Shown here in pieces: positions 1-21,068 of a stretch of 43,640 nucleotides of DNA (its first letter is position 1; the number at the start of each line of letters is the position of its first letter). The translations under genes and the position numbers were made by a program. The notes beneath the pieces are model-generated. The model had not been told where the DNA came from. It saw only the letters and a program-made list of their open reading frames with translations, and did no database searches. The stretch is from a virus, in the IMG/VR virus record IMGVR_UViG_3300046808_000334, positions 1 to 43,640 of that record; one strand, given 5' to 3'.

Positions 1-3000
1 GTACTCTTTTCTGAGCAGTCGGGTACGTCTTGTGATGTAATAAACACCCTTGCACCAGTACCACCGCCAAGCTCTAGCGGATTAACATAATTGCCGTAGT
101 CTGGGCTTAGAGGATTTAGATCAATTGAGAATTGCTTACTCAACTTCTGGCCGCCGATCTCTACGTATGTTAGAGGATCATAACCGCCCGGTGTGCCTTT
201 GTACTCAACAAATGTTCTAGATCTAGAATCAAATCGTACTTCACGGAACCCAACCCAATCCGGATGCTTGTTAATATTATAAGGCGATCCTTTATAAACA
301 GGATGGTCTGGACCGTATTGTGTGTTATCACGAATTGGGTCAGCATAACCTAGAATGTTATCCGGTAATGGACTGTTACCTAAATACTCAAAATCGTATT
401 CTAGCGGAATACCCATTGTTAAGTCTGCTGGGAAGATCTTATATAGACCGCGGTCAATAATCTTTAGACTTGTAATAGCGCCTTCGCCATCTACACCGGT
501 AACAACAAACTTGGCTACACGAACTGGGCCAGCTGCACTGCTGAAACCTTCGACAAATGCATTTGCAACAGCATCACTAGGATTACCTGATTTAATAAAG
601 TCGGGTGATAGTGCAACCTTAGCAGATAGCACAGCATCCACTCTGCCAACTCTTGGATCAACTACTTCTGTCATACCGCGTGAGCTAAATGGCTCTACAA
701 CAGATACTTCAACATTGCTTAGAGCTGCAATATTTGCTGAGAACGAAGAGTTAGCATTACCAAAGAATGCATCCTTAATAGTCAGCTGATTAGATGCAGT
801 ATTAATTGATGTGATCAAGAATACTTTATTGTTTAGTAAGTTAGCTGTAGCATTTGTAGTATCACACAGCACTGTTACATAACCAGGTTGTTGTGCTAGT
901 GTAATAATGCTTGGATCTGTGGTAATAGTTACTTCGTCATTGCGTGCAGATACATTACCAGTTGTGATAACCGGACTTAGTGTTAGGTTAGCACTGTCTG
1001 TGTATACATTACCAAATGTTACGCTGTTAGCAGTTACTCTAAAGAACTTTTCTTTAAGTTCAATAATGCCGCCTGGCAGTTCGCTTGAAATCTGCGCAAG
1101 TACTATTGCATTTCTGTAATAAGTACCAGATGGGTTAGCGGCATCTAATGTAATATAGCTCTGACTTGCTTGACCACCAGTATCAACAACACTGATTGTT
1201 GGTGGTTCTGCGATGTCATAGCCAACGCCATAGTTTAGCATTTGAATTTGATCAATGCCGCCGTTAGCATTAAGCTGAGTAACAATAGCACTTGCACCAA
1301 TACCAGGTGTAGTACCGTCGCCAATGATAACCTTAAGGTTGGCTGCATTAGTGTAACCAACACCAGGCTCATCAATACAAATTGTAGTTAGCGGGCCAAT
1401 GGTGCTGTTAACAGGAGTACCGCCAACTAGTCTTAGACGATCGCCAATGCGATATCCTTTACCACCAGTTGCATATACACTTGTTGTTGTGTTGCTGATG
1501 TTCTGTGAAGGGACAAATGCGCCATCTGTTTCTGAAGTTCCAACAGTAACATTGTCATTGAGATTGATTAAGTCACCGTCGTCATTTTTGTAATAACGAG
1601 AATAAGTCTTAGGTTCAAATACCCCATCTTCTGAGTTATAAGAACTTATTGAGACCAACGAAACATCAGTGTTGCTGATTGTTTGAGAAGTATTTCTTTG
1701 CTGCTCAAAACCACGAACAATGTGGAAGTCTGCTACTTGTTTATAGCGGCCGCCGGCACAACCATTCTTAACAGCGAAGCCTGCGTCGGTACATGATTTG
1801 ATCTTCAACTGATTAGTTGCTGTATCAATTAGTGCCTTAACACCCATGTTAGCACAGTTAATCTGTGCTGCAATATCTTTGATTGATGAACCTGGGCGTT
1901 TGATAATCTTTCTATCGTTAATGAAGAATTCTGAATTATCATCAACGCTTAACAAATCTTCATCACTGATAGTTGCACTAGGTGTAGGTCTTGCAATAGG
2001 AGCAACTGCTGACTGTCCTGCACGAACATACGCACCAGTGTCATCAAGCCCTAGCGGTGTAATGTTAATTGTAGGTACTGCTGAGAATTGAATCTCATCG
2101 TCATCGATTGGTAAAAATTCCCATGGCACAGGAACACTTGGGCCTAGATTGTCGTAGTTAACTGGAGGATTGCCGCCACCTGAACCACCACCTGAACCAC
2201 CACCTGAACCTGGGGGTACACCTACGCCCGGTACAAAGTCAACACCGTCGCCTAAATCTGGTATTAGTGTAACTGTATCCATACCGCGTTGGCCTGGAAT
2301 TACACCACCAATTTGTTCATTGCTGTATGATGTTCCACCAATACGATCAACTATACTTGATGTGCCGTTAACATCGAATCCTGTTCTTCCTGCAACTGGA
2401 CCAGTCTGTACAACGTTACGAATAGCTGTTGAACCATCTGGCAGGTAATATGTTGACGAAATCTTAGTTGGTTGATAAACAACGCCACGCATAGTCTTAT
2501 CAAGACTTGCTGCAACGCTGCGGAACCATGGTTCGTTTTGAATGTTTACGCTGTTTAGTGGACGTGGTGTTCTTGAAACTACTTCTAGCTTCTTAGCTAG
2601 TGGAATAACAAAACCACCAGTAACACGTTGACTTGTTGCGTTAACATATCTATCACTGCGTAGTGGAATTTGGAAACCATAACGCTGAGGGCCTACTACT
2701 CGAGTATTTGAGTTAATAGCCTTAAATGTAGTTGGCATAAAGTTATAACCAGTTAGCGATGGATTTGAATAACCGCTAAAGTTTTTCTTTGTACCAAAAA
2801 TAGATTCCCAAATAGCTTTCATGCCGCCGCCGATAGCGCCAACCACGTCACCAACAAGATCAGCGGCTCCGCCTGCTACTGATGATAGTGTACCAAAAAC
2901 GTCGTTGGCTGCACCACCGATGGTTCTACCAACATCACCAAAGAATCCGCCGTCATTGCCTCCACCTGTTAGAAGACTTTGAGTTTCAGCTGACAGTCTT

Positions 3001-6000
3001 GTAATCAATGCGCCGTCACCTGCACTAGTAAATCCAGATGTTTGAATACCTGCTAGTGTTGCAGACGTATCCAGCATGCCGGGTGTAACCAATGATGTGC
3101 TTGATGTAAGTATAGCATCGTTGGTAATGCCGGTTGCACCAGTGCCAGTGAAGCCGTAGCTAGTTGTAAATCCACCTGTTGAAATTGGGTTGTAGAGCGG
3201 GCTATCAAATGACATTGGCACAGTTACTACTCTGTCGCCGCCTCCGCCTCCGCCTCCGCCAGGTGTTGTAGTACTACCGGTATCTGTACCACCTGTAGTT
3301 GTACCACCTGTGGTTGTGGTACCTGTGGTTGTAGTACCTGTACTTCCTGTGCTAGCATTTGGATCAACATAGCCTGGATCGCCTGGACACAATCTACCAG
3401 TAAATTCTACTGGTACGAATGCACTTGCACCTGGTGGCTGTACTTCAAGTTTAAATGTACCACCCTTCTTGTTATTACCAAAGATACCACGCATGAAGTA
3501 GTACTTGCCTGCTTCAAGCGAAACTGTGCCTTGTGTTGATGCAGGTGGGTGTAAGCCGCCGTTGGCTACAACTGCGTTAGTCCAGTTGTAGTTTCTCTTG
3601 TCATCAGGTCTATGACCATCTTGCTTGTATTTTTCTAACAACGGCAATGTATCGTCTATGTCGGACACCCATACCCATGACGCATCGTCTGATGTTGTTT
3701 TAAATGTATGAGTACCTGTAGCAGATGCTTTGTAATAACCCTTAAATTCATAAGTGCAGAATTCCTGCATTGAACCAATATCGACAGTAGTTGCTTGTGT
3801 ACTTACTTCCATACCACCGTTGGCATTAGCACTGTTTGGATCTGCTGTCTTACCGCTATAGCCTTTTTGGTTCTTGTATGTTGGGTGGGCCATATATGGA
3901 TAATAAATGTTGTCGCCTTGATTACGAATTGGACCTTTAGAACCGTTACCAAAGTAACCGTCATCTTTACCAGGTGATTTTTTACCAAACAATCCGCCAA
4001 AGCTCAAGCCTAAGAACTTGTTGTTCTTAGTTTTAGCATCGCTGAACACATACTTGTCAATGATAGCGCCGTCTTTGAAACTACGTGAACCACGAGTTGC
4101 ATTTTCGCATCCTGGTGGTGGAGGTGGTTCAACCACACGCTCGTAGCGTTTTGTAAAGTTAATAGCTAGTCGGTATGTACCAACTGTGTTACCAACACCC
4201 TTGTGTACAGTTACTCGCACGTACTCGCCCTTGCGGCAGTCAATTCTACGAGAAATAAATCCGTAACCTGCTACGCCAACTGAATTACCAGCTGGACCTT
4301 TAGCTAAAGGTGCAAGGTCTGCATTAAATGTCGCAGGATTAGCGTATACTTGTTCTGTATCAATATACCATGCTTCGTTTACTGCTGGTACAAATGAGCG
4401 CCCAAATCCAGGAACAATATCAATGCCATAGACACCAATTTGCTCACCGTCATCAACGTTTTTATTACTGCCCGTTGAGCTAGTATCAATAACAACTTGC
4501 ACACCCTTTGTAAATGCTTCATCTTCGGCTTGCTCAATGGTTAGACCATTTGCTAGCGTACCCGCAGAGCTAAAATCAAAGAATACCATGAACGGATTGT
4601 TACCAACAATCCTGTAGACAAATGTCTCATTTATCTGGGATTCTTTGGTTGATTTAGCGGCTTTATCTTTTTCTGTTTCTAGTCCTAGTACTTCTTCAGA
4701 ATCTCGTAAGAAGCAAGGAATATTTGATGCGTCAACATTTACTTCTGGAATTGGAATGTTTGACTGATCGATGTCACACTGTGTTGGTAGACCTGCTAGA
4801 GCACCACCGTGAATAATTGGAGCAGGTGGTGTGTTGTCGCCTGCGCCGCCTACAGCTGGTACATCATCTACAGAAGGAATGTTCTGCGGATCAAAGCCTC
4901 TACCAAATCCAGTGCCTAGTCCTGGGGGTGTTCCTGAGCCAGTTGGTACTGTTGTTGAAGTGCCGCCTGTGGCTTCATTCTCATCGTCATCACCAGTTGA
5001 GCCACCGACTGCTGGAGTTGTTGGATCAAATGCATTCCACGGATTATTTGCGTCACCGTATTGAGGATTGAAGCCTGGGTCTGTTGGCAGTAGTGTTGCA
5101 TCAGTTACACCATTCTTCCAACCTTTTCCGCCCCAGCCAGTGTCTGGAATTGGGCGACGTAGTACTGCGTCAAATGGCAACTCAGTTAAGCGAATATACT
5201 TAACTCGTGTTACTGTACCTTCATAGTCTCTGTAAATCGGTGTTGGGTTACCGTTGCTGTCAACATTTCTATAATCGTATCCAACTAACTGATTTACATA
5301 TGTATGTGGCTCAGTCCAGAAGCATGCAACGAAGATTTCTTCAGGACGTAATCCTGTTACTGCTGGATTGCTATAATCAGCAGGTGGAACAACGCTGTAT
5401 GAGTAAGTTGGATCTGCTGTATTAATAACAGGGGCTAATTTGAAATCCGCACTGTATTTGAAACGTTGCTGTCTTGTTGTCCAGCCGTTTACACTTCTAC
5501 CTGGATATGCGCCAGCAGTGGTTACAGGGCTACGACTTGAGTTTGGTCTGTGACCGTCATTCTCAATATAGTAGCCGCGGCCAAAGCCCCAATATGTAGG
5601 AGCGTCATTTGCACCAATCAGCGATCCTGGTCCTCTTGTATCTGGCGTCCACTGTCCTGGTGTTAGACCTGGAGTCCACATCAAGAATGTATTCATACCG
5701 TTGCCATTAACTTGTATGCGAGTTTCTGCGTCGTTTAGTGTACTCAACGCACCCATCATTAATGGTTGTGGTAAGTTTGCAAAGTTAATTTCAGCATCAC
5801 TACCGTTACCAGTTACTCTAGCAAATGGTTCTGGAATTAACTGCTTACCAACATACCAGGCAGGCTCAACTGGCGGAATAGTAATAGTATATGAGTTTGG
5901 ATTAGCTGATACAATATCAATTTTTGTTGGATCGTACGGTGTAATGCCAGCATTGTAATATAGATTTTCTAATGGTAACCCGTCAAAGTCATTGTATGCA

Positions 6001-9000
6001 TTAACTGTACCAAAGAAATTATGTGCTACTGCCGGTGGATATACTCTATCTACTAGAATATAATAAACTTTACCAGCTGAGTTCTGTACTAATTCGTATA
6101 CTTCGTAGATAAACTCTGCGCTGGTCTTTAATCTCCAACGTGGACCAGTATGTGTACCTGCGCCAGGAACACCTGTAAATGTTCTAGTATAGTCAGTACC
6201 ATCTGGGTTCTTCATTATGTAGCCGCGCCACTTAACACCCATAGTAGTTGTTACTGCTGGGTCTGCTTCAGCTGAACCAGGAATGATTCGTAGCTTAGGC
6301 TTATTTGGATCATGTCCTTGTGGCAATGATGGTATTGTTACTTCTGTTCCAGTGTCCTCGCCATCTGGGTTTACACCAGTATCTGAATCAGTACCATCGC
6401 TGCTATTACCATCTGTGGATGTTACACCATCTGTATCTAGGGTGTCGTCATCTTCTGTTGCATATACATTATACTTTGTGTAATCTTCAATTAGAGGATT
6501 CCAAACATACAACTGTCCGTCACGTTCGTAGGTGAAGCCGTATGTGGGACCTTTAGGAATTGGGCCTTTGTTGAAGCCTTTATCAACAATCTTTTCAATG
6601 TTAGTAGATAGAGGAATCTTGCCTACAATCTTTACATCGTCGCCGATTACATTATTAATAACTTGTTGGTCTTTAACATATGGACCGTAGTTGTTAATAG
6701 CACCTGCAGGAATCTTAACACTGCTAGTTTCATTTACTGCTACTGGTGTTTGTGGATCTTTGAGGAAGTTAAAGCCCATCTTGAACACACGCTGATCGCC
6801 ATCTGCTACAATTGCAGATCTACGTAGGTTAATAGCTCTGTTAATTGATGTAGCTAAACCACCTAAGTTGTTAAAGCTGTCAATTTGAATTTCCGAGTTG
6901 TTTAGCTTAACCTTGTTATGATCAATTGTTGTTAGCAGTGGATAACGACCATTGAAAATATTTTCTGGTTCGCGGGCAATAATAAAGCCAGTTGAAACAT
7001 TAGCATCTTCGTTTAGGATAGTATTGTTGAATACAACGTCACCGTTGGCTTCAACAGTGTACATGTTTTTAGCTACCATGAATGAGTTTGACAAATACAT
7101 TACTGTAACGTCATTTAGATTCATAGTAGAATCAACTGTTACTACATTAGAATCAGCATTAGCATAACCAATAGTTTCGTCGTAGTAATAATAAGTTTGA
7201 TCATCAATTGGATAACGACCTAAGATATTAATTGTATTAGGTGTGATACTATCAATGAAGTATGTTTGGTTGTACTGTCTTGGGTCAGCAAAGTGTACTG
7301 CAATACGCTTTTTCTTTCTAGCGTAAATTGGCTGAATACCGTGATTTGCAATTGTAGTAATTTGAATGCCGCGAGTAATAATGTTACCACTAAAGTCATT
7401 AACTTCAATAAATGGTGCTGCAATAATCAGTGTGTTTGATGTTGGTACTGATCTTACAGCATACGCACCGCTGAATGCATTTGATGCAACACGTACAATG
7501 TCACCGCTTTGTAGGCCGTGCGCATTAGCAGTGAACAGTTTAGACAATGTCATGTGATAGACATCAACTGTTCTTGCAGTTGTGCTTGGACGTTCAATAG
7601 TAAAAGATATAGGAGTTACATTAGATACAGTAAAGTAAGTATTAGAATCGCCAAAATCTTCAAACGCTGTAACGCTATATTCAACATTGCTTAAGGCTGC
7701 TACTACGTTAGCATCGGCAAAGTAATCGCTGCGAACAACAAAGCTATTACCAACAACGTTAACACTTTCTACGTAGTATTGCTTGTTGTTAGCTGTAGCA
7801 TCGCCGTCAAATGTAAGTGTAACGTGACCGCTAGCGGTTACAAAAGAAGCATTAGATGAGTCAACTGTGATGTTACCAACACCATTAAATGTTAGATTTG
7901 CACTATATGTATAAGTGTTACCCACAGCATCATTGAAAGATACTGCATCACCTTCGGCAAGTGTTGGAATAGATACATCGCTGATTGTAACAATATTGTT
8001 TGCATCGGAAGCACTCATACTTGCATTCTTGTATGAGTATGTTGATACAGGCTTAATATCTGTAAGTGCAATACGTGCTGTTGGGTGTGGACCAATGCTC
8101 TTAATACGAGCCTCAATCATTCTAGGTGCTTCTACATCTAGAATGTTTAATTCGTTTTGTTTAATAATTGTTTCGTTAGTCCATACTACAACGTTATCAC
8201 TGACATTAGCGTTCTTCAATGTTAGGAAGAAGTCTAGATATCTCGATGTATCGTTTTCGCCAATCTGGTTTGAATCAATGTAATTAAACAAACTTTCTGT
8301 TGTATACAGTTTGGCTTCGCCTGCATAATCTGCAAGATATGTTAAGCCGCCGGCTGGTTGTAGTTTATAAACGTTCCAGTCGTTATCTTCGGAAACAGCA
8401 ACGTGAATGTAGCTGTTACCAGATGGTTTGATAATGATGTTATCTTCAAATAAGTCAGGTAAACTTGCAACGTCGTAGGACATAAAGTTTACGTTTGCTG
8501 GGTTTACATAGCCAGCGTTAGGAACATTTGGATACTTAGTATCAATGATACCCGAGTAGTCAACCTCAGATGTAGTTGGCCATAGATTGTGTTCGCGCAC
8601 ACCTAGAGGTTTCTTCAAGAAACGTTCAGTGTCGTCAATGTCAATTAGTACAATATCATCGTCTTTAGCATCGGGTGTGATTTCATAGATACGCTTTGTG
8701 CCTAATTTTACTGCAATTGAATCACTAGTTTGAACTATAATTTCAAGCTGTGAACCTGGAACATCGCCTTGATATGCATCTGTAAAGTCAATAGTTGCTT
8801 TTTCAACAATTTTAATAACAGACTGTGCTGGCAAAATATACTTTGTTCTAGGTGGTGTCTGTGTATAATCAAACACCGGAGAAAGAACAGATTTTGGTAG
8901 CAACGAAATGTTAGGGAAAGTAATTGCCGAGCTAGTTAATGTAAATAAAACTTTACTTGGCTGATTCTCAATTTTAACGCCGTTAACAAACACTTCGACA

Positions 9001-12000
9001 AACGGATACTGTCCATTTACCAAAACAATATTGTTAGAATCTAAAACTGTACTTTCGTTTTCAGTACCAACGTTTAAATTAATTGTAGTTGAACTAGCTT
9101 CGTCAACGTTTGAAACAGTAGTGATAGACCACTGATCACCATCATCATATTCCCAGTCTGTGCCTAGGGTAGCAGTATTTCCGTCAACTGATACCAATAC
9201 TTCTGTTCCTGTATTTTCGCCTACAAGTTTTCTTGCTACGTCAATGGCATAACGCTGACGTGGTTGATATCTTCCAGTTGTTAAGTATAGACCTGCATCA
9301 GCACCAACAATGCTAAAGTCATTGCCTGTTAGAGCTAGCGTGTAGCCAATGTCAATGTCCAAGTTTCCACTAATGTCAGTATCTGTTCTATAAACAGACG
9401 CAACAATATTGCCTCCCAAATCAGCTTCACTGTTAATAGTACTTACTAGTTCGTCAGCTGAAGTAACTGAACTTAGGTCGACAACTACGTTAGCGTTACC
9501 AAAATGATCGGTAATTTCAATTGAGGTTAGACCTGACGTATCAATCCAACTATTACTGCTTAATGCTGTAACAGCGTTAAAGTTTGTTGATTCTGTGTCA
9601 GCACGCACATAACCTGCAATAACTTTTAGACCAACGATTGGTTGATCTGGGTTTGTGCCGTAACCTGTTCCTGGGTTGGTTACTGTAATTTTGTCAAGTT
9701 GCCCAGCACTGTTTAGCGTAGCTTCAGCAGTTGCTTGAATGCCACCAGTTTGTGTTGGAGGTGTAATAACAATTTGCGGAACACTGTAGTACTTGTACTT
9801 GCGATCAAGTATTTCAATCTTTTCTACAATGTTTGTAGTATCTTCAGGGAAGGCCAGTGTAATTAACTGCGGATCGTTAACGAACTCGCTCTTTTCTAGT
9901 TTGAGCTCAACACTTTGATCATTTTCTGTATCACCAAAGTCACCTACACGCAATGCCCACTCGTCGTAAACTGTTACATTACCTTGTACAATTGCGTTAC
10001 TGCGAGCAATTCGGCCCAGGCTGGTTGTTGTACCTTTGCTTTGTAGCATACCCAAGTAAAAGTCTACTTGCTGGTCATCGGTAATATCCAGCTCTCTGAG
10101 ATAATCTTTTTCTTGGTGGCCAAACTGTGCGCGAGCTACTTGATAAATTTGCTTATCAACAGGAACGAACCCCAGCTCGTTATATCTGCTCATAGTACCA
10201 GCAAGGTTGTCTAAGTTAGGTTTCAGTTCATCGCCTGAGATAACAAAACCTTCTGTGATATAACGACCGTCCCAGTTAGCTGTTCTTTTTGCTTTAAGTT
10301 TAAAGCGAGAATGCTTTTGATTTAACAGTGGATCAAAGATTACATCATTGAACACTGTGGTATTATCAATTACCATCGCATGTTCAATTTCTTGTGTATA
10401 GATAAGCGCACTGTAAATCTGTCGACCAGGAGGTGGTGCAATCTCTATACGGTTGTCTTCGCGTACGATTTCACACTCGCTAGGAGAAATTACTGCACCT
10501 TCGGCATCCATTAGCACAAACTGATCGCGGTCAACACGATTAAGTTTTGATATAAAGCCTTGCTCTACTTCAAACACTACGTTTGTAGCCATTGGGCTTA
10601 GTTCTAAGGTGTTGCCAATTTCCCAGTTACCAGTTACCCAGAACAAGAATTGTTTTGCAGCATATGCCCAATCTCGTGTTGCATTGATGCTGCTGTCATA
10701 CTCACCAAAGTTATAACCTGTAGACTTTTGATATCTACCTAAGCTGATCAAGAAGTCAAATACTTCGTCGGTTGTGGTAAACTTTGTTTCGTAATCAACA
10801 CGTACTACTTCTCCGGTAGTCTCTTGATAAAGTACGCCTGTGGCTGCACCCACTTGTGGCAATGCTGATAAGCGAGTCCACTGTGATTTATCAAATGTTG
10901 CTGTACCTGCAACGTCTGATGTTGCACGATAATAACTATTCTGATAGCGAACTATGGATAGTTGTCTATAAGAAATATTAGGTGTCCAATCAACAAAGTT
11001 TGCTGGTTCACCGCCAACACTAACTCGTTCGCGTGGTCCTGCTACTCTACTTGCTAAAGTTAAGAAGTAACCAAAGTTTCTATCAAAGCCGCGGACCTTA
11101 TAACCGTCTTCTAGCTTTTCAATGATTACGCCGCTGTAGAAATTTCTTGTTTTGTAAGGTGAGCTATGTACTAAAACGTTAACGTTTTCTGGTGGAACAA
11201 TTAAGCTGGTTGCGTTACCGGATGAGCTATATTGGTCTGTTCGCAAGACCATTGTATCCTTGTCAACGAAACCTGCTAAACGGTGACCTAACTTAACATT
11301 CAGTGAACGTAGCTTATATGCAAAACTATTATCTATTGTTAGACCTTGGAAATTTAACCAACTGTTAATGAACTGTGTATAACCAATGTTAGTTACAAAA
11401 CTACCATCAACTACGTTTGACTCGCCGTGAATTCTAAAGTGATCGGGTCTGCTCCACTGCCAAACACTTCGAGTTTCTTTTTCAACAATTAAATCTTTAT
11501 TTGCAAGAGTTTTTTCAATCTGAGTAGGATCAGCAAACATAGTTGCAAACTGTGCTGGCTTACCTAGTAGCAGTGCTTCAGCAACCGCAAATGGATAATC
11601 CTCAGAATATCTCCAGCTGATTTCAACTGGTGCACCGTCACCAAACTTCCAGTCAGCACCGATAGCATCAGTATAAGTCTTTTCAACGATTCTATCGCTG
11701 TCTACTGCTTTTGTTAAACCTGATTCGGGTACGACAGCAGAGTTAATTGTGTTATTTGTTAAGTCTGCTGGAACTGCACGATATTTGTTACCCCATACCA
11801 CTGTACTGGTAGAATGACTTTGTACGCCGCCGCCAACCGCATATGGGAACATTGGCTTACCGTCATCGTCCATTGTTGCTACATAATAAGTGATAGGTGT
11901 AGTTGGGCTATCAGGTGTATATCCGTATCGAGTATTATATTGTGTTGTATAGCCTAATGCGTCATCGTTAATTGCCCCATCGAGATCATAATCTTCAACA

Positions 12001-15000
12001 AACATACCAGTGTGTGCGCCGCCGGGACCTGACTGGCGAGAACCTGAACGCAATTTAAATCTGCTCTTAATATTAACAATTTCGCTGGATGTATCCATAG
12101 GATCTTTATAGCCGTACGGACCATAGATAGGCAATCCGTCAAACGCCCAGCCAATAATTGGAGAATGTTCTGTGCTATCCCATTCTGTTAATCCTAGAAT
12201 CTGCGGACTAATATTGTGATAGTGGAACAGACCGTTAACAGTACTATGACTATATGTTGTAAACTCATTAAAATCGGTTACGTTACCATTGTTGTAATGC
12301 CAACTGCCTTCATCGTTCCAGCTCTTAGTTGACTTAGGTGTATAGTATGCAATACCATTAACCATTACGGCTACTGCATAATCAGGCATAGCTGTTGCGG
12401 TTTCGTTTACTAGTCGCGGAATCACATAGCTTACGTCTTGTTCTTCAATCTCGCTGTGACCAACAAAGTTTGGGTGCAAGTCTAAGGCATGGTTAGGTAT
12501 TGCGCGGCCTTCAACATAAATGTTGCTTGAATCAAAACTTACATTGACACCATCAACATTTAAAAAGCTAGTTGTAGCATAACCTAAACTTGTATTAGCA
12601 TCAGCGTTTCTCCAGGTAACAGTGTTGGTTGTTGAACCTGTTGAAATCAGCTCATACGGTGATACTAAGTTACCTTCAGCATCAACTGGGACTACTTGAT
12701 GTAGACCAATTCTTCTGAATGGGTTGTTTACTAGATAACTGCCATCAGTGTAGTTTTCTCTACGACCTTGACGAATAATACCTTCTTCTAAGTCGTCCCA
12801 CATAGCAGTGTTATTGCTACTATAATCTGTGCCGTACTGATCAGTCCACCACACAGGCTGCTCAGTAAATCCTAGCATCTCCCATGGGTTTGTGTTTGGA
12901 CGGAATGTATCGTAATAATAGTCGTACCAGCCCTTCCAGTATCCGCCGATATCTGCATTACCTCTGTAGTTCCAAGTCCATGGATCTTCAGCATCAAAAA
13001 ATTCATTTGCTACAGGATCTACTTTATTAGCAGTAACCCAAGTAGCAAAGTGGTATCTCATTAGATCATACCATTCTTTGTATTCAAATCCAGTGCTACG
13101 GAAAGCGCCAGGCTTTACACTTGTTCTGTTAAGTTCAGGTAAACTATTAGCAAGTCTGAACTGAGATTTAGATGCATTATAAATGCGTTTTTCAAATTCA
13201 AGCAGTAACTCGTCACGGCGATCACCTAGTGTAGGTGTTCTTGAGCCATCGTGACCAACCAGTACTTCAATCGGAGTTTTAAAGCTGTAGTCTGTTTCAA
13301 TTGTTGGCTGATACAGCTGGAACAAGCCTAGTACACTTGGTGTAGGAGGACATTGTGCGCTATCTCGCTCACTGTCATAGATTTTTAGTGCTACTGTGTT
13401 GCCTAAATCTAATGTTACATTAGTTCTGTTAATTTCAACCGTAATTGGATTGAAGCTAGTAATAGTATAATCAGAGTCAACATTTAACAATGTTGTTGAA
13501 GTGCCTGATTGTAGATAAACCAGCAAACTATTTTCAATTTTATCTAAGTCGGCAAAAGTAGTAGAAACAAACTCGCTTACTGTTCGATCGTTAACAACAA
13601 ACGTTTCTTCAACATAGTTGTCACCAAATGGAACAACATAGGTTCTGTTGAAAACATCTTTGCCTACTTTAAATGATGTAACGTTTCTTAGTACTTGTTC
13701 AAGTACGTACTCATTGGAGAAGTTACTGATATCATAGACATTGTAGTAATTGTTGATCTCACTCTTTAATCTATTCTTATATTTTTGATATTCGCCTGCG
13801 TTGAAACGAATGGCGTCAACAAGATTGTGCGGTTGGCTATCGAGCAAGAATGCTGCCAGCAACGCTGAATGATTAGAATAAACAATGTCTGTAGCAACTG
13901 CATGATTTTTAGGGGTACTAGCAAAGTTATTTGTTGATAAGCTATCCCCAACAAATCCATCTTGTGATTCTATAAACTTTTTAAAGTGTGGGAGAAATTC
14001 TGGTTCTGACAAGACAGCAATGCTGTTATTGTAAGGGTTTCTCCATGACAGCGGAATCTCGTACTTGCTGATACTGTCGTAAGAAATTAGTCCTGAATCA
14101 CTGTGTGCAGATATTTCTATGTAATCGCCAACAGAAAAATTAAATGCATCAAAGTCAATAAATCCGTCTCTGCTTGCGCCGTAAGTAAAATCTATACGTT
14201 TGATCCCGTTCACTTTAACATCAATGTCGTATCCACTATCCTTAGCTGGATATAAGTTTGGTATACAACCGATAAAGAAAGTCTTTGATTCTTCGTCAAT
14301 ATCGAATTGATCTAGTGTATAAGATGTATAGATTCTTTGCTTAGAAGCTGTGTCAACGGTTTTCCAGTCGCTATGAAATTCTTCTACATCTTTTAATAGT
14401 TTGTAAAAATGCTTACCTAAGATAACAATAGAACTATTTGTACCTAGTGGTGTATACCCATATGTTAACGAAGTAATATCGTTAGCAAATGCAATTTCAC
14501 TGCTGGCCTTGAAAGGTCTGTAATATAAATTAAAGCCAAGCACAGTATCTTCAATACTGCTACGAGTAAGCTGTGTGTCTGATCCAACGCTAACTGTTTC
14601 ACGCATATAACCAAAGATTCTATTTCCCTTGAAATCTGAATCTGGGTATTTTCCTGGATCGGCTAGATATACGCCCTGGTCGTCGTATAAGTTGAATAGC
14701 GGATCTTGGTTAACGCTTATCTTTTCTTGGCAGAGTACAAATCCGTCATTGGTAAATCTATATTCTTTACCAATGTTGAACGAACCGTTTTTAATCTGTA
14801 CAACATCGCCTTCTTCTAACGTCCACGGAATAAAGTTAACATCACCATCAACTGCGCCAGCTGGATTTAGTGTAGGATCTCCTACTCGCACTAGTTCGAT
14901 ATTATTAGTTGCTGTATTTGTATACGCTTGATATATGTATTTAGAAATGCTAATATCTTCATTAGGGAAAATAATTGTAGCTCGTTCAACTGGTACATCA

Positions 15001-16403
15001 TCGACTAATGTACCAGTTCTGCCACCATCAAGTTCTGCAAATGCTAATGTAGTACAAGCAATATTAACAGCACCTACGCCGCGTGCGCCGTGGTTGTATA
15101 ATTCAAGTCTATGGTCAAATTCAATAATCGGTCTTTGCGCACGGTATGCTTCACTGGGCACTGCCATACCTGCATCAACAAAGTTGTTCTTGTGATACCA
15201 GAAGTTTACACGACTCCAAACGTTTTTATTTGCAGCGCCACGAGCTTGCAAAATATAGTCCGGTGTGCTTTGGCTTAATCCGCCGCCCCATTGAAGATCA
15301 CCTTCACCATCAAGTGGATCAGATGTATCTTTGTCAAAGCTGTATGCACCACCTAGTAGATAATACTTGCCAGTATTTGGGTCGATGCCGGTTTTTGCCT
15401 GGCTTGATAAGATGTCAACGTTACTAGATGTAATTGTATGCATCTCATCAAGGATTACTGCACCGACGAAGTCTGTACCAGTTGCGCTTTCAATAGAGAT
15501 TCTAACTTGATCGCTATAGTGTTCGCCAGATGTATTAATAATTACCGAAGTAACTGTTCCGTTACCGTCAACAACAATATTACCTGTTGCGGCAGTAGTA
15601 GCTGTGCCGCTGAACACAACAACATCAGTGTTACTGTATCCTGTACCACCATTTAAAACGGTAACGCTAGAGATATTACCAGCACTGTGACGTAGGTCTG
15701 GATCGTCTAATGAAATAATAGTTGCATCGTATACGTCGTCAACTGGAGTAGAGAAGCGTGTGCTAAAATTATCCACTAGTGGTACAAAATAAATCTTCTC
15801 GCCAACACCCTCAACAATATACTCGATGTTAATTTGCGATGCAGGAATTACATATTCGCCAGCAAATTTAATAACCATGCCGTTGCGGAATTTTTTACCA
15901 ACGGGCGGAGTGTATTCTGTTTTACCAACAATATCACGATTGATATCAATCGGATCAGTTAGTGTACCTCTGACTTCTACTGGGGTTGGGCCAGCTGGAT
16001 ACCAATAATATTCGTGGTAGTTAATTAACTTGTCAACATCAATTGGAGGCATGAATACATTGTATTTTTCTCCAAAGATTCTATTGTGATTGTTGATGTT
16101 AACGCCATAAGTAGATAATGACTCGATGAATTCGTCGTAGAACACTAAGTTTTCGCTGTTACCTGTAACAGGGTCAATATTATTAACCGTAGGTGTTACA
16201 TTATAAAAACGTCGTGTAACAGTAGGCTGGGCTACATAGCTACCCTTAACATTAACGTCGTCACTGGTTTTGTTTCCAATAAACCCTTGAATTTGTTCAA
16301 CGTTGGCTTTACTAAATAACTGCTCTACTGTGCTTTCAAAGAAGTTTTTGATTGCTGTAGTTTGTAAAACCCCGGGTAACTTTTTGTAAATCTTATCTGA
16401 CAT
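1..16403 (-). CDS. Giant tail/baseplate-fibre structural protein, partial (C-terminus outside window)
   Basis: Reading the minus strand from the ATG at 16403, preceded by an AGGA ribosome site just past the gp6 stop, the frame has no stop down to the left edge: at least 5,467 residues, about 600 kDa. The start reads MSDKIYKKLPGVLQ. Visible parts are a YHYH domain (about residues 1336-1520), many beta-rich repeats with Gly-x-Gly-Tyr motifs (near 245-271, 2232-2254 and 5006-5068), a PA14/GLEYA-like domain (about 4161-4323), a Thr/Gly then poly-Gly linker (about 4350-4389) and a triple SGGG linker (about 4730-4745). It is the third gene of the gp25-gp6 operon, where T4 has gp7 and the rest of the wedge, so a virion role at the baseplate periphery or as a fibre/adhesin is inferred. 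I see no enzymatic active site. The gene identity is positional; the open frame itself is seen directly. Confidence 0.9.
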   Translation of the reverse strand, partial: MSDKIYKKLPGVLQTTAIKNFFESTVEQLFSKANVEQIQGFIGNKTSDDVNVKGSYVAQPTVTRRFYNVTPTVNNIDPVTGNSENLVFYDEFIESLSTYGVNINNHNRIFGEKYNVFMPPIDVDKLINYHEYYWYPAGPTPVEVRGTLTDPIDINRDIVGKTEYTPPVGKKFRNGMVIKFAGEYVIPASQINIEYIVEGVGEKIYFVPLVDNFSTRFSTPVDDVYDATIISLDDPDLRHSAGNISSVTVLNGGTGYSNTDVVVFSGTATTAATGNIVVDGNGTVTSVIINTSGEHYSDQVRISIESATGTDFVGAVILDEMHTITSSNVDILSSQAKTGIDPNTGKYYLLGGAYSFDKDTSDPLDGEGDLQWGGGLSQSTPDYILQARGAANKNVWSRVNFWYHKNNFVDAGMAVPSEAYRAQRPIIEFDHRLELYNHGARGVGAVNIACTTLAFAELDGGRTGTLVDDVPVERATIIFPNEDISISKYIYQAYTNTATNNIELVRVGDPTLNPAGAVDGDVNFIPWTLEEGDVVQIKNGSFNIGKEYRFTNDGFVLCQEKISVNQDPLFNLYDDQGVYLADPGKYPDSDFKGNRIFGYMRETVSVGSDTQLTRSSIEDTVLGFNLYYRPFKASSEIAFANDITSLTYGYTPLGTNSSIVILGKHFYKLLKDVEEFHSDWKTVDTASKQRIYTSYTLDQFDIDEESKTFFIGCIPNLYPAKDSGYDIDVKVNGIKRIDFTYGASRDGFIDFDAFNFSVGDYIEISAHSDSGLISYDSISKYEIPLSWRNPYNNSIAVLSEPEFLPHFKKFIESQDGFVGDSLSTNNFASTPKNHAVATDIVYSNHSALLAAFLLDSQPHNLVDAIRFNAGEYQKYKNRLKSEINNYYNVYDISNFSNEYVLEQVLRNVTSFKVGKDVFNRTYVVPFGDNYVEETFVVNDRTVSEFVSTTFADLDKIENSLLVYLQSGTSTTLLNVDSDYTITSFNPITVEINRTNVTLDLGNTVALKIYDSERDSAQCPPTPSVLGLFQLYQPTIETDYSFKTPIEVLVGHDGSRTPTLGDRRDELLLEFEKRIYNASKSQFRLANSLPELNRTSVKPGAFRSTGFEYKEWYDLMRYHFATWVTANKVDPVANEFFDAEDPWTWNYRGNADIGGYWKGWYDYYYDTFRPNTNPWEMLGFTEQPVWWTDQYGTDYSSNNTAMWDDLEEGIIRQGRRENYTDGSYLVNNPFRRIGLHQVVPVDAEGNLVSPYELISTGSTTNTVTWRNADANTSLGYATTSFLNVDGVNVSFDSSNIYVEGRAIPNHALDLHPNFVGHSEIEEQDVSYVIPRLVNETATAMPDYAVAVMVNGIAYYTPKSTKSWNDEGSWHYNNGNVTDFNEFTTYSHSTVNGLFHYHNISPQILGLTEWDSTEHSPIIGWAFDGLPIYGPYGYKDPMDTSSEIVNIKSRFKLRSGSRQSGPGGAHTGMFVEDYDLDGAINDDALGYTTQYNTRYGYTPDSPTTPITYYVATMDDDGKPMFPYAVGGGVQSHSTSTVVWGNKYRAVPADLTNNTINSAVVPESGLTKAVDSDRIVEKTYTDAIGADWKFGDGAPVEISWRYSEDYPFAVAEALLLGKPAQFATMFADPTQIEKTLANKDLIVEKETRSVWQWSRPDHFRIHGESNVVDGSFVTNIGYTQFINSWLNFQGLTIDNSFAYKLRSLNVKLGHRLAGFVDKDTMVLRTDQYSSSGNATSLIVPPENVNVLVHSSPYKTRNFYSGVIIEKLEDGYKVRGFDRNFGYFLTLASRVAGPRERVSVGGEPANFVDWTPNISYRQLSIVRYQNSYYRATSDVAGTATFDKSQWTRLSALPQVGAATGVLYQETTGEVVRVDYETKFTTTDEVFDFLISLGRYQKSTGYNFGEYDSSINATRDWAYAAKQFLFWVTGNWEIGNTLELSPMATNVVFEVEQGFISKLNRVDRDQFVLMDAEGAVISPSECEIVREDNRIEIAPPPGRQIYSALIYTQEIEHAMVIDNTTVFNDVIFDPLLNQKHSRFKLKAKRTANWDGRYITEGFVISGDELKPNLDNLAGTMSRYNELGFVPVDKQIYQVARAQFGHQEKDYLRELDITDDQQVDFYLGMLQSKGTTTSLGRIARSNAIVQGNVTVYDEWALRVGDFGDTENDQSVELKLEKSEFVNDPQLITLAFPEDTTNIVEKIEILDRKYKYYSVPQIVITPPTQTGGIQATAEATLNSAGQLDKITVTNPGTGYGTNPDQPIVGLKVIAGYVRADTESTNFNAVTALSSNSWIDTSGLTSIEITDHFGNANVVVDLSSVTSADELVSTINSEADLGGNIVASVYRTDTDISGNLDIDIGYTLALTGNDFSIVGADAGLYLTTGRYQPRQRYAIDVARKLVGENTGTEVLVSVDGNTATLGTDWEYDDGDQWSITTVSNVDEASSTTINLNVGTENESTVLDSNNIVLVNGQYPFVEVFVNGVKIENQPSKVLFTLTSSAITFPNISLLPKSVLSPVFDYTQTPPRTKYILPAQSVIKIVEKATIDFTDAYQGDVPGSQLEIIVQTSDSIAVKLGTKRIYEITPDAKDDDIVLIDIDDTERFLKKPLGVREHNLWPTTSEVDYSGIIDTKYPNVPNAGYVNPANVNFMSYDVASLPDLFEDNIIIKPSGNSYIHVAVSEDNDWNVYKLQPAGGLTYLADYAGEAKLYTTESLFNYIDSNQIGENDTSRYLDFFLTLKNANVSDNVVVWTNETIIKQNELNILDVEAPRMIEARIKSIGPHPTARIALTDIKPVSTYSYKNASMSASDANNIVTISDVSIPTLAEGDAVSFNDAVGNTYTYSANLTFNGVGNITVDSSNASFVTASGHVTLTFDGDATANNKQYYVESVNVVGNSFVVRSDYFADANVVAALSNVEYSVTAFEDFGDSNTYFTVSNVTPISFTIERPSTTARTVDVYHMTLSKLFTANAHGLQSGDIVRVASNAFSGAYAVRSVPTSNTLIIAAPFIEVNDFSGNIITRGIQITTIANHGIQPIYARKKKRIAVHFADPRQYNQTYFIDSITPNTINILGRYPIDDQTYYYYDETIGYANADSNVVTVDSTMNLNDVTVMYLSNSFMVAKNMYTVEANGDVVFNNTILNEDANVSTGFIIAREPENIFNGRYPLLTTIDHNKVKLNNSEIQIDSFNNLGGLATSINRAINLRRSAIVADGDQRVFKMGFNFLKDPQTPVAVNETSSVKIPAGAINNYGPYVKDQQVINNVIGDDVKIVGKIPLSTNIEKIVDKGFNKGPIPKGPTYGFTYERDGQLYVWNPLIEDYTKYNVYATEDDDTLDTDGVTSTDGNSSDGTDSDTGVNPDGEDTGTEVTIPSLPQGHDPNKPKLRIIPGSAEADPAVTTTMGVKWRGYIMKNPDGTDYTRTFTGVPGAGTHTGPRWRLKTSAEFIYEVYELVQNSAGKVYYILVDRVYPPAVAHNFFGTVNAYNDFDGLPLENLYYNAGITPYDPTKIDIVSANPNSYTITIPPVEPAWYVGKQLIPEPFARVTGNGSDAEINFANLPQPLMMGALSTLNDAETRIQVNGNGMNTFLMWTPGLTPGQWTPDTRGPGSLIGANDAPTYWGFGRGYYIENDGHRPNSSRSPVTTAGAYPGRSVNGWTTRQQRFKYSADFKLAPVINTADPTYSYSVVPPADYSNPAVTGLRPEEIFVACFWTEPHTYVNQLVGYDYRNVDSNGNPTPIYRDYEGTVTRVKYIRLTELPFDAVLRRPIPDTGWGGKGWKNGVTDATLLPTDPGFNPQYGDANNPWNAFDPTTPAVGGSTGDDDENEATGGTSTTVPTGSGTPPGLGTGFGRGFDPQNIPSVDDVPAVGGAGDNTPPAPIIHGGALAGLPTQCDIDQSNIPIPEVNVDASNIPCFLRDSEEVLGLETEKDKAAKSTKESQINETFVYRIVGNNPFMVFFDFSSAGTLANGLTIEQAEDEAFTKGVQVVIDTSSTGSNKNVDDGEQIGVYGIDIVPGFGRSFVPAVNEAWYIDTEQVYANPATFNADLAPLAKGPAGNSVGVAGYGFISRRIDCRKGEYVRVTVHKGVGNTVGTYRLAINFTKRYERVVEPPPPPGCENATRGSRSFKDGAIIDKYVFSDAKTKNNKFLGLSFGGLFGKKSPGKDDGYFGNGSKGPIRNQGDNIYYPYMAHPTYKNQKGYSGKTADPNSANANGGMEVSTQATTVDIGSMQEFCTYEFKGYYKASATGTHTFKTTSDDASWVWVSDIDDTLPLLEKYKQDGHRPDDKRNYNWTNAVVANGGLHPPASTQGTVSLEAGKYYFMRGIFGNNKKGGTFKLEVQPPGASAFVPVEFTGRLCPGDPGYVDPNASTGSTGTTTTGTTTTGGTTTGGTDTGSTTTPGGGGGGGGDRVVTVPMSFDSPLYNPISTGGFTTSYGFTGTGATGITNDAILTSSTSLVTPGMLDTSATLAGIQTSGFTSAGDGALITRLSAETQSLLTGGGNDGGFFGDVGRTIGGAANDVFGTLSSVAGGAADLVGDVVGAIGGGMKAIWESIFGTKKNFSGYSNPSLTGYNFMPTTFKAINSNTRVVGPQRYGFQIPLRSDRYVNATSQRVTGGFVIPLAKKLEVVSRTPRPLNSVNIQNEPWFRSVAASLDKTMRGVVYQPTKISSTYYLPDGSTAIRNVVQTGPVAGRTGFDVNGTSSIVDRIGGTSYSNEQIGGVIPGQRGMDTVTLIPDLGDGVDFVPGVGVPPGSGGGSGGGSGGGNPPVNYDNLGPSVPVPWEFLPIDDDEIQFSAVPTINITPLGLDDTGAYVRAGQSAVAPIARPTPSATISDEDLLSVDDNSEFFINDRKIIKRPGSSIKDIAAQINCANMGVKALIDTATNQLKIKSCTDAGFAVKNGCAGGRYKQVADFHIVRGFEQQRNTSQTISNTDVSLVSISSYNSEDGVFEPKTYSRYYKNDDGDLINLNDNVTVGTSETDGAFVPSQNISNTTTSVYATGGKGYRIGDRLRLVGGTPVNSTIGPLTTICIDEPGVGYTNAANLKVIIGDGTTPGIGASAIVTQLNANGGIDQIQMLNYGVGYDIAEPPTISVVDTGGQASQSYITLDAANPSGTYYRNAIVLAQISSELPGGIIELKEKFFRVTANSVTFGNVYTDSANLTLSPVITTGNVSARNDEVTITTDPSIITLAQQPGYVTVLCDTTNATANLLNNKVFLITSINTASNQLTIKDAFFGNANSSFSANIAALSNVEVSVVEPFSSRGMTEVVDPRVGRVDAVLSAKVALSPDFIKSGNPSDAVANAFVEGFSSAAGPVRVAKFVVTGVDGEGAITSLKIIDRGLYKIFPADLTMGIPLEYDFEYLGNSPLPDNILGYADPIRDNTQYGPDHPVYKGSPYNINKHPDWVGFREVRFDSRSRTFVEYKGTPGGYDPLTYVEIGGQKLSKQFSIDLNPLSPDYGNYVNPLELGGGTGARVFITSQDVPDCSEKS
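2175..2213 (-). repeat. 12-bp tandem repeat encoding (SGGG)3 linker
   Basis: Three near-identical copies of the 12-bp unit CCACCTGAACCA encode a PGSGGGSGGGSGGG linker in the giant protein. The near identity of the copies at DNA level suggests recent slippage expansion, so copy number may vary between related phages. Confidence 0.85.
3237..3356 (-). repeat. Thr/Gly-rich and poly-Gly linker, low-complexity DNA
   Basis: The plus strand shows GCCTCC triplet iterations at 3237-3260 followed by a run of GTACCACCTG-like units to about 3356. On the coding strand this is a Thr/Gly-rich stretch (STGSTGTTTTG...) followed by eight glycines. It joins the PA14-like domain to the more C-terminal part of the giant protein and probably acts as a flexible hinge. 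Confidence 0.8.
3433..3920 (-). other. PA14/GLEYA-like carbohydrate-binding domain inside the giant protein
   Basis: Residues about 4161-4323 include YEFKGYYKASATGTHTFKT followed by SDDASWVWV, then KYYFMRGIFGN and GTFKLEVQPPG. The sequence 'GYY...G.HTF...SDDA..VWV' is characteristic of PA14/GLEYA folds, which often bind glycans. Placed near the C-terminal part of a very long tail protein, it is a reasonable candidate for host-surface glycan recognition. That role is inferred. Confidence 0.6.
11845..12395 (-). other. YHYH domain inside the giant protein
   Basis: Residues about 1336-1520 contain FHYHNI followed by IIGWAFDGLPIYGPYGY and, further on, GGAHTG, YYVATMDD and MFPYAVG. This order matches the YHYH family (Y/FHYH, then GxAxDGxPIYGP, then a closing segment ending in a PY/PF pair). 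The family's function is unknown; it occurs in secreted and surface proteins. In a tail protein it is probably a surface or ligand-binding module. The family assignment is by motif recognition only. Confidence 0.75.
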
Positions 16404-16414: not shown

Positions 16415-19400
16415 TTAGCGATCAGTACGTAATGTTTGAGAACTAATTTTTTCTACGATTTCAATATCGTTAACTGTAGCTGTGTTTAAAAATAGCTCGT
16501 TTGGTTCTGCCTTTACTTGGAACAGATCGCCAAACTTGCCGCTGGTATTTTTAGGTAGAATAACAATACTACCAATTGCGCTGCCTAACTGTTGGTGTAC
16601 ATAACTGCTTAGTTCTGTGAAGTAAAATGTTTCACCGAATTCCCAATTGTTTACATCAAAATAACTGTTAAAGGCAGAAATGATTCTTGTTTTTAATTCG
16701 TTATCGCTGAGCTGATTTGATAGTTTAACTACGCGGAATCTTGCTTGGTACTCAGCATCTGCCATTGTGCCAAACAATGGTTTGAATTTTGCGCTGCGGA
16801 ATACTAGGCTATCGCTGGCACTCTTATACTCATTGAGATTTTCAAATTCAACGCTGAGTTCAGCAGATGTAGGTTCTCTGGGTATTCCTCTGCCTAAAGG
16901 TTGTGCCTGGTATGCAACGATTTCGTTATAGTAACTTGTTGTTAATACAATCATTTCTACCACGTTACTGATACTTGGGTCAATTCTTACATCGCTCGGT
17001 GCTACGTGTTGCCAACGAATAATGCTTTGTTCTTGTGTTAGGCTTGCAGAGTTTTGTGTTGGGCCGCGGCCGTGTTTAACAAAGAAATCATTGGTTTCTA
17101 TAGCTCGAACTGTGTTTATGCTAGTATTTATAGTTGCGCTTTCTGGCGTCATCAAATAACAGGTGTCTTCGGCAACGGCATAAATTTTAATACCTATTGC
17201 GCCGCCTAAATTATTTTCTAAGAACTGCTCAACAATACTTAGGTTTTTGACCAATAGCCAATCAACAGTACTTAACTTTGTATTGCTTACATAGCTACCA
17301 GGACTAATAGTATCATTGGTAAAATTAACTGACAATGAGTTTTCGTATCTGTAGTCTAAGATAATACCATTGACGGGACGATCGTAACTGTATCCGTCAA
17401 AGTCTGTATAGTATTCAAATAGTTGAATATCATCAGCATCTACATACTCAGCAAATTGTAACGGTCTATCCGGTACTAAATCACTGTCAGTATCCATGGG
17501 TGATACTATTACTTTGCGCGGATCTGTATAACCATCGGCATATTTGTAAACATCATTTACTTGCCAGACAATATCTTTTTCTAAGTTTTCTTTATTGTTT
17601 AAGTAGTTTAAAACAATTTGGTCTTTAAACACGATACCTGTATTGTCAGCTGATAAGTGATAGATGTTATCCTGTAAATCGCTATAAATCAAGTTACCTG
17701 TTTCTGCCGCAAGATTAAAATTAGCCAAACGTAGTCGTCCGGTAGTATTTGATAATGTTGTTCCAGTTTCACCATATGAGTACACAGTAGTATTACCGTG
17801 ATACACTTCAAGTCCAGTGCCACTGTCGTTGAATAATCTATATGTGATATTGCCGTTAGCGTCTAGGATGTTAGTGCCAAATGTAGTATTATTAAACGGA
17901 ATAACAATGCTGCTTGGTATTCTAGAAAGCTGACCGCTGTTGTTAGCAATAGTTACGTTAGATGTGATGCTACTCTGTGTACCATCGTCAAAATAAGAAT
18001 TTAAACGTACAGTAGCTTCGCCAACATAACGGTTGCCAGTATTAGTACTAACAATGTCAGACAATGAACCTGTGCCAGCATCTGGATTGAACAAGCCAAA
18101 ATTACTTTTCCAATTTACTTCAACATCATTCCATTTAGTAGCACGAGTACGTAGAGGAATATTAGTTGCAAAGTTTACTGGTGTATGCAACGAACCAGTT
18201 TCTCTGTTTCTCCAATACGTGATATTATTTCTACGGAACCACTCGATAGTTTCTGCGCTTCCTGGTTTTGTATTCAAAGTGTTAAATGTAATTAAATCAC
18301 CTGATGACTTGTTGTTACTGTCAACAACTTTAACATTTTTAATATTGTAGAACTTTAGCTCGCTAACACTTTGAACAACATAATCTTGTCCACGGATAGT
18401 TACATTATATCTGTAGCTTGAACTATTGATAGGGCTATATTCAAACAATAGTAACCAGCTACTGTCTTTGCCAGCGCCGCTGGTATTTTCTGCCGATGCT
18501 ACATTATAATCAGCTGTCTTGTTCAAATCTTTGCTGGCAATTACATACCAACGATCTGCGGATATGTTGTATCCTAAACCAAATGTAGTTTTATTTCTAA
18601 TCGCAGATCTAATTTGTTCGGATTCAGTAGCTGTGAATAATTTTCGCATCGATGCGATAATCTCATCGGCGAACCAATTGTCATTTACTTCATCACTTAG
18701 TACCCATGGACCAACACTTGTTGATAATCCGCTGGTTAATCTACCATCATAATCTACATTAACAATTCTGACCCATTTATAATCATCGAGGTTACTTGAA
18801 TTTACAAACTTAACAAAATTATTAACTTTAAACATCGATGTGCGAGGATCGTTGTTAACCATAACAACAGTTTCACCTGATGTACTAAATGTTTCAGTCA
18901 TGTAACCTGTTTTACTTTTACCAGATAATGGTAATGGTTTCCAACGAATATTTAAAGATGTAGTTTTAAATTTTTCTACTGAGTAATCGGTCCATAAATT
19001 TCTCAAGCCATAGTAAACAAAGTTGTTTAGTCTTTGTTCTCTGAGATACTCAGGAATAATACCTGCAACAATTTCAGATGCAGTGTTGTTGTCGTTTACA
19101 ATAATACTCTTAGTAGAATTTCTATCTTCAACATATAAGATAGCATCCTTAGCAAAAGTATCAACATTATTATATGCGCCAGTAGGATCGTTAATATCAA
19201 TATAACGACTGTGGCCAGCATGAGTTCTGTTTAATGCTTTGATCTTAGTAATATTGTTGCTTTGGCTAAGAGGGAATACATTGTAATCCTGCGCACTAAT
19301 CATTCTATTCTGTGAATAGTACACCTGAGGCGCACGCTCTTTGATTGCTTCAAGGGACTCTGGTGGCAAGCTGTTATTAACTCTGCGCTCAAGTCTGAAT

Positions 19401-20599: not shown

Positions 20600-20983
20600 T
20601 TATCCTATAGCATCTGTGGCAGAAAGTGCCTGTCTAACATACTCGAGATATAGAGCATCTTGGTCGCCAGTTTCTACATACTGGATAGTTACTTCTATTC
20701 TCAAAGCCTGATCTACGTAAAACATAACTGTTTCTAAATGTCTTACACGCGGATCAGCATCTATGATTCTTTTTACATCTTCTTCAATTTCAGATCTGGT
20801 TAGTGTATCTTCGGGATTCATTAGTAAATCCCAAATGTTACTACCATAGTTTGGTCTCATCAATCTTTCACCCTTACGAGTATAAAAAGTGTTGAGCAAA
20901 TCACGCTTAACAAGTTCCATATCCTCCAGTGTATATGGGGCTCGAACCTTGTCAACAGTGCTGAAACCTTTAAATGTTACCAT
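20600..20983 (-). CDS. 25: Baseplate wedge protein gp25
   Basis: T4 gp25-type protein of 127 residues, a lysozyme-like-fold wedge component that docks with gp6 and gp53. Diagnostic segments are KGFSTVDKVRAPYT, LLNTFYTRKGERLMRPNYGS and NIWDLLMNPEDTLT, followed by the 'RIIDADPRVRHLETV' region. The frame stays open upstream to 21046, but I place the start at 20983 (MVTFKGFSTVDK): it gives the usual family N-terminus, and the upstream part overlaps a late-promoter box at 20989-20996. That box ends only 5 nt before the ATG and there is no ribosome site, so the late mRNA may be leaderless. First gene of the gp25-gp6-giant operon. Confidence 0.9.
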   Translation of the reverse strand: MVTFKGFSTVDKVRAPYTLEDMELVKRDLLNTFYTRKGERLMRPNYGSNIWDLLMNPEDTLTRSEIEEDVKRIIDADPRVRHLETVMFYVDQALRIEVTIQYVETGDQDALYLEYVRQALSATDAIG

Positions 20984-20988
20984 AACAT

Positions 20989-21019
20989 TATTTATCTTAA
21001 AAGTTAAAACTCGTTTTAA
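20989..21019 (-). promoter_or_regulatory. Late promoter: GATAAATA box plus 16-bp upstream palindrome
   Basis: On the minus strand GATAAATA (20996-20989) resembles the T4 late box TATAAATA. Exactly 7 bp upstream is the palindrome TTAAAACTCGTTTTAA (21004-21019, plus-strand sense). The same arrangement with 7-bp spacing occurs at 28811-28841 and 35292-35322. It drives gp25, gp6 and the giant gene and lies back to back with the sigma70 promoter of the SprT-like gene. Confidence 0.75.
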
Positions 21020-21039
21020 TGATGCCCTAAAACAGCCGG

Positions 21040-21068
21040 TTGACAAGCACCAAAAAACGTGCTATAAT
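21040..21068 (+). promoter_or_regulatory. Sigma70-type promoter of the SprT-like gene
   Basis: A perfect consensus pair: TTGACA at 21040-21045, 17-bp spacer, TATAAT at 21063-21068, 29 bp before the ATG at 21098. It should be read by unmodified host RNA polymerase, suggesting early or constitutive expression. Confidence 0.85.

Follow-up and report, generated by a model that had tools for sequence, protein, structure and literature searches.

The giant protein encoded at one end of the window (the whole stretch analysed here, a 43.6-kb IMG/VR virus fragment that makes up the entire record) belongs, as one of its longer members, to a family of giant tail-baseplate proteins that is known from very large bacterial viruses but uncharacterised. 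The reading that we favour, with a probability of roughly 60%, is that it is a baseplate giant of the jumbo-myovirus group that includes PA5oct, RaK2, Atu_ph07 and SCTP-2, in which a wedge scaffold also displays host-surface-binding domains on one chain. Comparison of the sequences indicates that the protein grew by insertion of domains into a conserved scaffold and not by fusing separate T4 baseplate proteins. What had been an anonymous giant frame can now be assigned to a defined family whose members share a scaffold with two insertion slots of measured size; this anatomy, together with the C-terminal part recovered in relatives, is the most useful outcome of the analysis.

In the ORF listing the giant frame starts with an ATG and occupies 16403..3 on the minus strand, with 5,467 stop-free codons (596 kDa), and is open at the window edge, past which its 3' end lies; residues 1-5467 of an expected ~6,800 are present. 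The original prediction of an uninterrupted frame of at least 5,467 residues running off the edge is confirmed, its coordinates being right and its strand, which had been left unstated, being the minus strand. The C-terminus, to be sought by extending the sequence, was reached through relatives gathered by a search with the adjacent gp6-like protein, for which 80 loci were fetched. In the closest relative, G001 (IMGVR 3300017917_001839), the giant is 86% identical to that of the window and its closed frame of 6,784 codons, with the ATG at codon 7, gives 6,778 residues (744 kDa); in G002 (3300044634_001060; 80% identical) a closed frame of 6,762 codons, again with the ATG at codon 7, gives 6,756 residues. 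Residue 5447 of G001 is the counterpart of window residue 5467, so that about 1,330 residues of the window's giant are missing beyond the edge. At 596 kDa in the window and ~744 kDa in the closed relative, the protein is, as had been proposed, far larger than any T4 virion protein. Such a size is not unprecedented, since the cyanophage P-SSM7 encodes 7,124 residues at the same locus, and a 2020 study (PMC7162821) described huge-phage proteins reaching 7,694 aa, some of them with a tentative structural annotation. A literature search for a description of the window's giant returned nothing beyond general statements.

Profile searches place the window giant in the phrog_10938/PA5oct gp355 family of jumbo-myovirus giant structural proteins. 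The PHROG profile phrog_10938 ('virion structural protein') matches residues 4-697 (E 9e-146) and ~1573-2218 (E 8e-109), and it also matches the C-terminal part of the closest relative, beyond the window edge (E 6.5e-76). Cultured jumbo-myovirus members of 3,300-4,600 residues were found by tblastn, namely gp355 of Pseudomonas phage vB_PaeM_PA5oct (YP_010678859.1, 'virion structural protein', 3,857 aa), gp180 of Agrobacterium phage Atu_ph07 (4,449 aa), gp140 of SCTP-2 (3,807 aa), GAP32_230 of Cronobacter phage GAP32 (3,341 aa), CBB_236 of Pectobacterium phage CBB (3,340 aa), ORF070w of Klebsiella phage RaK2 (3,326 aa) and the giant of Sinorhizobium phage Phosso (4,555 aa). The PA5oct giant is marked ESI-MS/MS in its sequence record, which identifies it as a virion protein, and CBB_236 was detected in CBB virions with mass spectrometry table values of 21 and 7.72, apparently peptides and per cent coverage (PMC5259590). 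By analogy, the window giant would be present in the virion of its own phage. Among the BFVD matches of its N-terminal model are the Atu_ph07 protein and, from uncultured Caudovirales phages, UniProt entries named 'YHYH domain-containing protein'; such sequences had therefore been deposited before.

The genes around the giant are those of a baseplate locus. It lies directly after a gp6-like baseplate wedge protein of 1,392 residues (16415..20593, minus strand; phrog_10646, E~0; phrog_219, 2e-21) and a gp25-like wedge protein (20600..21046, minus strand; phrog_261 and phrog_43), with a gp5-like baseplate hub/tail lysozyme (22012..24672, minus strand; phrog_13211, Phage_lysozyme and Phage_base_V) and a small baseplate wedge subunit (27561..27872, minus strand; phrog_7145, E=1.5e-26) at higher coordinates. 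The order gp25-gp6-giant is found in the window and in PA5oct, Atu_ph07, GAP32, CBB, RaK2 and Phosso, which bears out the placement of the giant after gp6 in the window and in most cultured relatives. SCTP-2 (MF360958) is the sole separated case among the cultured relatives examined, its giant and gp6-like genes lying ~90 kb apart (139 kb versus 231 kb), so adjacency to gp6 is not obligatory. Elsewhere in the window, a 1,155-residue ORF without a PHROG match (35393-38860, plus strand) is flanked by the portal gene and a baseplate-hub-like one. Several radical-SAM-like ORFs with weak PHROG matches are located downstream of the giant in G001 (L086:158-5742, minus strand), and radical SAM genes are also found near the giant in Atu_ph07.

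The giant contains four scaffold blocks, A, B, C and D, which family profiles show to be collinear with those of the cultured jumbo phages. All features of the protein given below lie on the minus strand. Block A (residues 1-207; 15783..16403), conserved in cultured jumbo phages, block B (residues 382-1251; 12651..15260) and block C (residues 1584-2183; 9855..11654) are present in the window, and block D (5731-6308, G001 codon numbering) is known only from relatives of 80-86% identity, because the window ends before it. The conserved scaffold totals about 2.2-2.5 thousand residues. Within block B, the AF2 model of residues 926-1012 (13368..13628) has a fold like the N-terminal anchor of T7 gp17 and other T7-type fibres and like comparable domains from the baseplates of P1 and others, with a VIA-align Z of up to 9.2 over 70-79 residues (2.3 A over 79 residues); a Z of this size may reflect a common beta arrangement. 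Block C harbours a CBM5/12 (chitin-binding type 3)-like module at residues 1801-1847 (10863..11003; VIA-align, 45 residues at 1.4 A), and Pfam CBM_5_12 is matched in 23 of 39 family members (best E 1.1e-5). Structure prediction in pieces, proposed at the outset as a check, gave confident models for parts of residues 1-2262 and revealed these anchor-like and CBM5/12-like folds; it yielded no match for the scaffold as a whole. Among solved structures none resembled the whole scaffold in fold searches with two AF2 models of moderate confidence (pLDDT 71 and 60): neither model gave a Foldseek match in the PDB at E<=0.001, T4 gp7 was not among the matches listed, and a PDB sequence search with several pieces of the giant found nothing significant.

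Between the blocks lie two insertion slots. Slot 1, between blocks B and C, comprises 332 residues in the window (11655..12650), compared with 15-103 in cultured isolates, and extends to ~320-450 residues in the environmental lineage, where it carries a YHYH domain. In the window this domain spans residues 1333-1510 (11874..12407; Pfam PF14240, E=2.3e-27, 96.6 bits against a cut-off of 25) and holds HYH and DGLPIYGPYG motifs; a prediction in the literature makes YHYH a metal-dependent hydrolase associated with the tail (PMC7824862). The second slot, which separates block C from block D, occupies residues 2184-5467 in the window (3..9854) and 3,545 residues in the closest relative, the range being 201-1,493 residues in isolates and ~2,500-4,100 in the environmental lineage. 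The slot 2 of the window's giant includes a carbohydrate-binding domain of the PA14/GLEYA type at residues 4214-4330 (3414..3764; Pfam PF07691 and PF10528, both E=1.6e-9, with 38.2 bits against a cut-off of 24 and 38.4 bits against 26.2). A tblastn search of residues 3168-5467 against cultured phages gave no match, so at tblastn sensitivity the greater part of slot 2 is confined to the environmental lineage. For these measurements the pieces were joined in the two-gene relatives G009 and G012 and in G008, which has one in-frame stop; the ranges omit G010 and G011, in which the profile also hit a repeat and automatic boundaries failed. On this sequence comparison, the extra size relative to the relatives of 3.3-4.6 thousand residues falls almost wholly in the two slots.

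The cultured relatives differ from the window's giant in these slots. PA5oct gp355 has blocks A, B, C and D in the same order (29-36% identity over the main blocks), the same gp25-gp6-giant order and the same neighbouring late sigma and SbcCD-like genes, but it lacks the YHYH slot (17 residues), has a slot 2 of 288 residues compared with ~3,545, and is ~3,000 residues shorter. CBB_236, GAP32_230 and RaK2 ORF070w likewise share the blocks and the position after gp6, although they are more diverged (about 22-30%) and their slots measure 45-103 and ~201 residues. The Atu_ph07 and Phosso giants, with the same blocks and position, already have an expanded slot 2 (1,488-1,493 residues, with GxGY repeats in Atu_ph07); however, they are without the YHYH domain.

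Under the favoured reading, the scaffold A-B-C-D would be built into the tail baseplate beside the gp6-like wedge protein, probably in the wedge position where T4 has gp7, each wedge most likely holding one or two copies. Its two slots would accept inserted surface domains: in the window lineage, slot 1 carries the YHYH domain, which may hydrolyse the envelope in a metal-dependent manner, while slot 2 is filled by a very long array, beta-rich and Gly/Thr-rich, whose PA14/GLEYA lectin-type domain may bind glycans. Blocks B and C carry the fibre-anchor-like fold and the chitin-binding-like module.

The relationship of this scaffold to T4 gp7 bears directly on a long-standing question, namely which proteins of RaK2-like and PA5oct-like phages stand in for the T4 wedge proteins; this now becomes testable in cultured phages for which virions are available. 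The gp6 profile (phrog_219) matches all four complete genomes searched (PA5oct, Atu_ph07, SCTP-2 and GAP32). The gp7 profile (phrog_964) has no credible match in these genomes or in G001, and the gp8 profile (phrog_977) none in the same four genomes save a sub-significant one (0.008) to a 128-codon Atu_ph07 frame far from the giant. The gp8 profile also found nothing in G001; neither profile found anything in the 250-kb contig G007, where gp6 was missed too, so that this last absence is not informative. T4-like gp7 and gp8 are accordingly unrecognisable or absent across a jumbo-phage group that keeps gp6 and gp25. As gp7 and gp8 are unrecognisable in complete cultured relatives, the earlier suggestion that the giant replaces gp7, by virtue of its position after gp6, is plausible as a substitution at the gp7 position; no sequence-level homology between the giant and T4 gp7 was found.

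A closer relationship is proposed by an alternative that we regard as a serious but tentative one, in which the giant is the T4 gp7 orthologue, a gp7/gpI-type wedge protein grown about six-fold by nested insertions, with a helix motif in block C as the old gp7 core. This KGT motif, DFYLGMLQSKGTTTSLGRIARS, at residues 2114-2135 (9999..10064), is a candidate gp7/gpI-type element and suggestive only. Its pattern, FYxGMIQSKGTxxSL, recurs in every jumbo relative examined, GAP32 among them, and resembles FYSTKGxxxSY of gp7 and HxxKGTxxA of P2 gpI. An unbiased block C profile aligns with P2 gpI exactly at this motif, although hhalign probabilities in the gp7/gpI comparisons are only 0.1-6%. When the columns of the motif region were shuffled, none of 120 shuffles scored as high as the real alignment for gpI or for the combined set, and 3 of 120 did so for gp7 plus cyanophage sequences; because the motif had been noticed before the alignment was sought, this result is a lead rather than a test passed. 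The motif may point to a core of the gp7/gpI type. T4 gp7 (1,032 aa) shares with the window giant its gene position after gp6 and possibly this motif, but it has no significant sequence match and is six- to seven-fold smaller. The gp7 profile fails to match in the complete jumbo genomes, which counts against orthology, as does the absence of gp7 from the matches listed in the fold searches, although the confident models there cover only parts of residues 1-2262 and the KGT region, with a pLDDT of ~40, was effectively outside the test. The Pfam family Tail_P2_I (gpI) was considered as a marker and matched no jumbo, cyanophage or T4-type record, which makes it uninformative. The fullest version of the idea is rather doubtful: a gp7/gpI-type wedge protein expanded to ~745 kDa by nested insertions, combining scaffold, a YHYH peptidoglycan/envelope hydrolase and a receptor-binding array on one polypeptide per wedge, with KGT as the wedge-core remnant.

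Giants of cyanophages at the same locus lend some support to orthology. PSSM7_090 of Prochlorococcus phage P-SSM7 (L110:6053-27427), annotated only as 'virion structural protein', has its 7,124 aa at the gp7 locus; the 'baseplate wedge initiator' of ACG-2014f has 4,225 aa and the MED4-213 giant 4,458 aa. A gp7 signature corresponding to T4 residues ~730-758 occurs in all three (E 1e-6 to 6e-3), near residue 690 in P-SSM7, and the profile probability around the cyanophage gp7 segment is 96.7%. Like the window's giant, they directly follow gp25 and gp6, have a YHYH domain (37-41% identical) and contain GxGY repeats; unlike it, they carry the gp7 signature, which the gp7 profile did not find in G001 or the jumbo phages, and they keep gp8 or gp9 as separate genes. 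A scaffold common to both groups was considered and rejected, as the overlap is limited to the YHYH domain and GxGY repeats and blocks A-D were not detected in the cyanophage giants. The distinction between jumbo phages, with no recognisable gp7 or gp8, and cyanophages, with a gp7 signature inside the giant, is a further useful result. PSSM7_084 of P-SSM7, which we take to be a VrlC-type baseplate protein, gave no blastp match to the window proteins tested. The lack of gp7 has been noted in pelagi- and cyanomyophages, with VrlC proposed as a substitute (PMC7029224).

It is also conceivable, though unlikely, that the giant serves chiefly in host recognition or as a whisker at the periphery, with no more than an anchor at the baseplate, and that another unrecognised protein does the job of gp7. 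Over most of its length the protein is rich in beta structure, and it has parts that are lectin-like, YHYH or similar to the T7 gp17 anchor; whiskers or hair-like fibres occur on CBB and Atu_ph07 virions (PMC7824862). However, the conserved part consists of the scaffold blocks, and the gp6/gp25 gene order is kept in most relatives, so a core wedge role fits better.

The original prediction further suggested that the giant fuses functions normally split over several genes; in T4 these wedge and fibre proteins would be gp7 with gp8, gp9, gp10, gp11 or gp12. Its sheer size, and the failure to detect gp8 as a separate gene in complete relatives, would agree with such an origin, which the remaining evidence nevertheless renders very improbable. 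Ten overlapping segments covering residues 1-2400 were compared, profile against profile, with T4 gp7 (8 sequences), gp8, gp9, gp10, gp11 and gp12, and none exceeded 2% probability; since the positive control, gp6 against T4 gp6, reached only 36%, such a negative speaks only weakly for their absence. In PA5oct a gp10-like protein is encoded by a gene of its own, gp8 or gp9 is retained in cyanophages that have similar giants, and the two insertion slots account for the length differences.

That the frame arose by misassembly, or encodes a polyprotein that is cleaved into several products, is hardly credible, for although three relatives encode the giant as two genes, the same single frame recurs in independent contigs from many samples and dN/dS is low over its whole length. 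Across the same stretch the other five frames contain 231-647 stops each, codon statistics show a GC3 that is distinct all along (0.29-0.32), and in comparisons with two independent relatives NG86 dN/dS is low in every 400-codon bin (dN 0.06-0.22, dS 1.0-2.9). The giant frame is under purifying selection along its entire length and, given these three properties, can be put down neither to chance nor to stitching of unrelated pieces; the original prediction had named an assembly error or an in-frame stop as refuting signs, and the frame is stop-free here and intact on other contigs. Uninterrupted giant frames of 5.4-7.9 thousand codons occur on more than 10 further environmental contigs, although a few of the longest, the frames of 7.2 thousand codons in G009, G012 and G016, are the second half of a split gene. 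In these three (G009 and G012 correspond to L023 and L077, and G016 is the contig of L115) the giant is encoded by two genes of ~800 and ~7,190 codons, split near residue 650. At the two junctions read, those of G009 and G012, a copy of a ~110-residue module (GYYPLY..E...HVFFG..FYMPNGL.LGTT.FHG.Y.G) is found at both the C-end of the first gene and the N-end of the second, as if the break had been capped by a duplicated domain. The giant of G008 (L079) has a single in-frame stop halfway through; its very close relative G030 (L078) is intact, with 6,546 codons, so this stop reflects either an error in sequencing or a mutation at the level of the strain.
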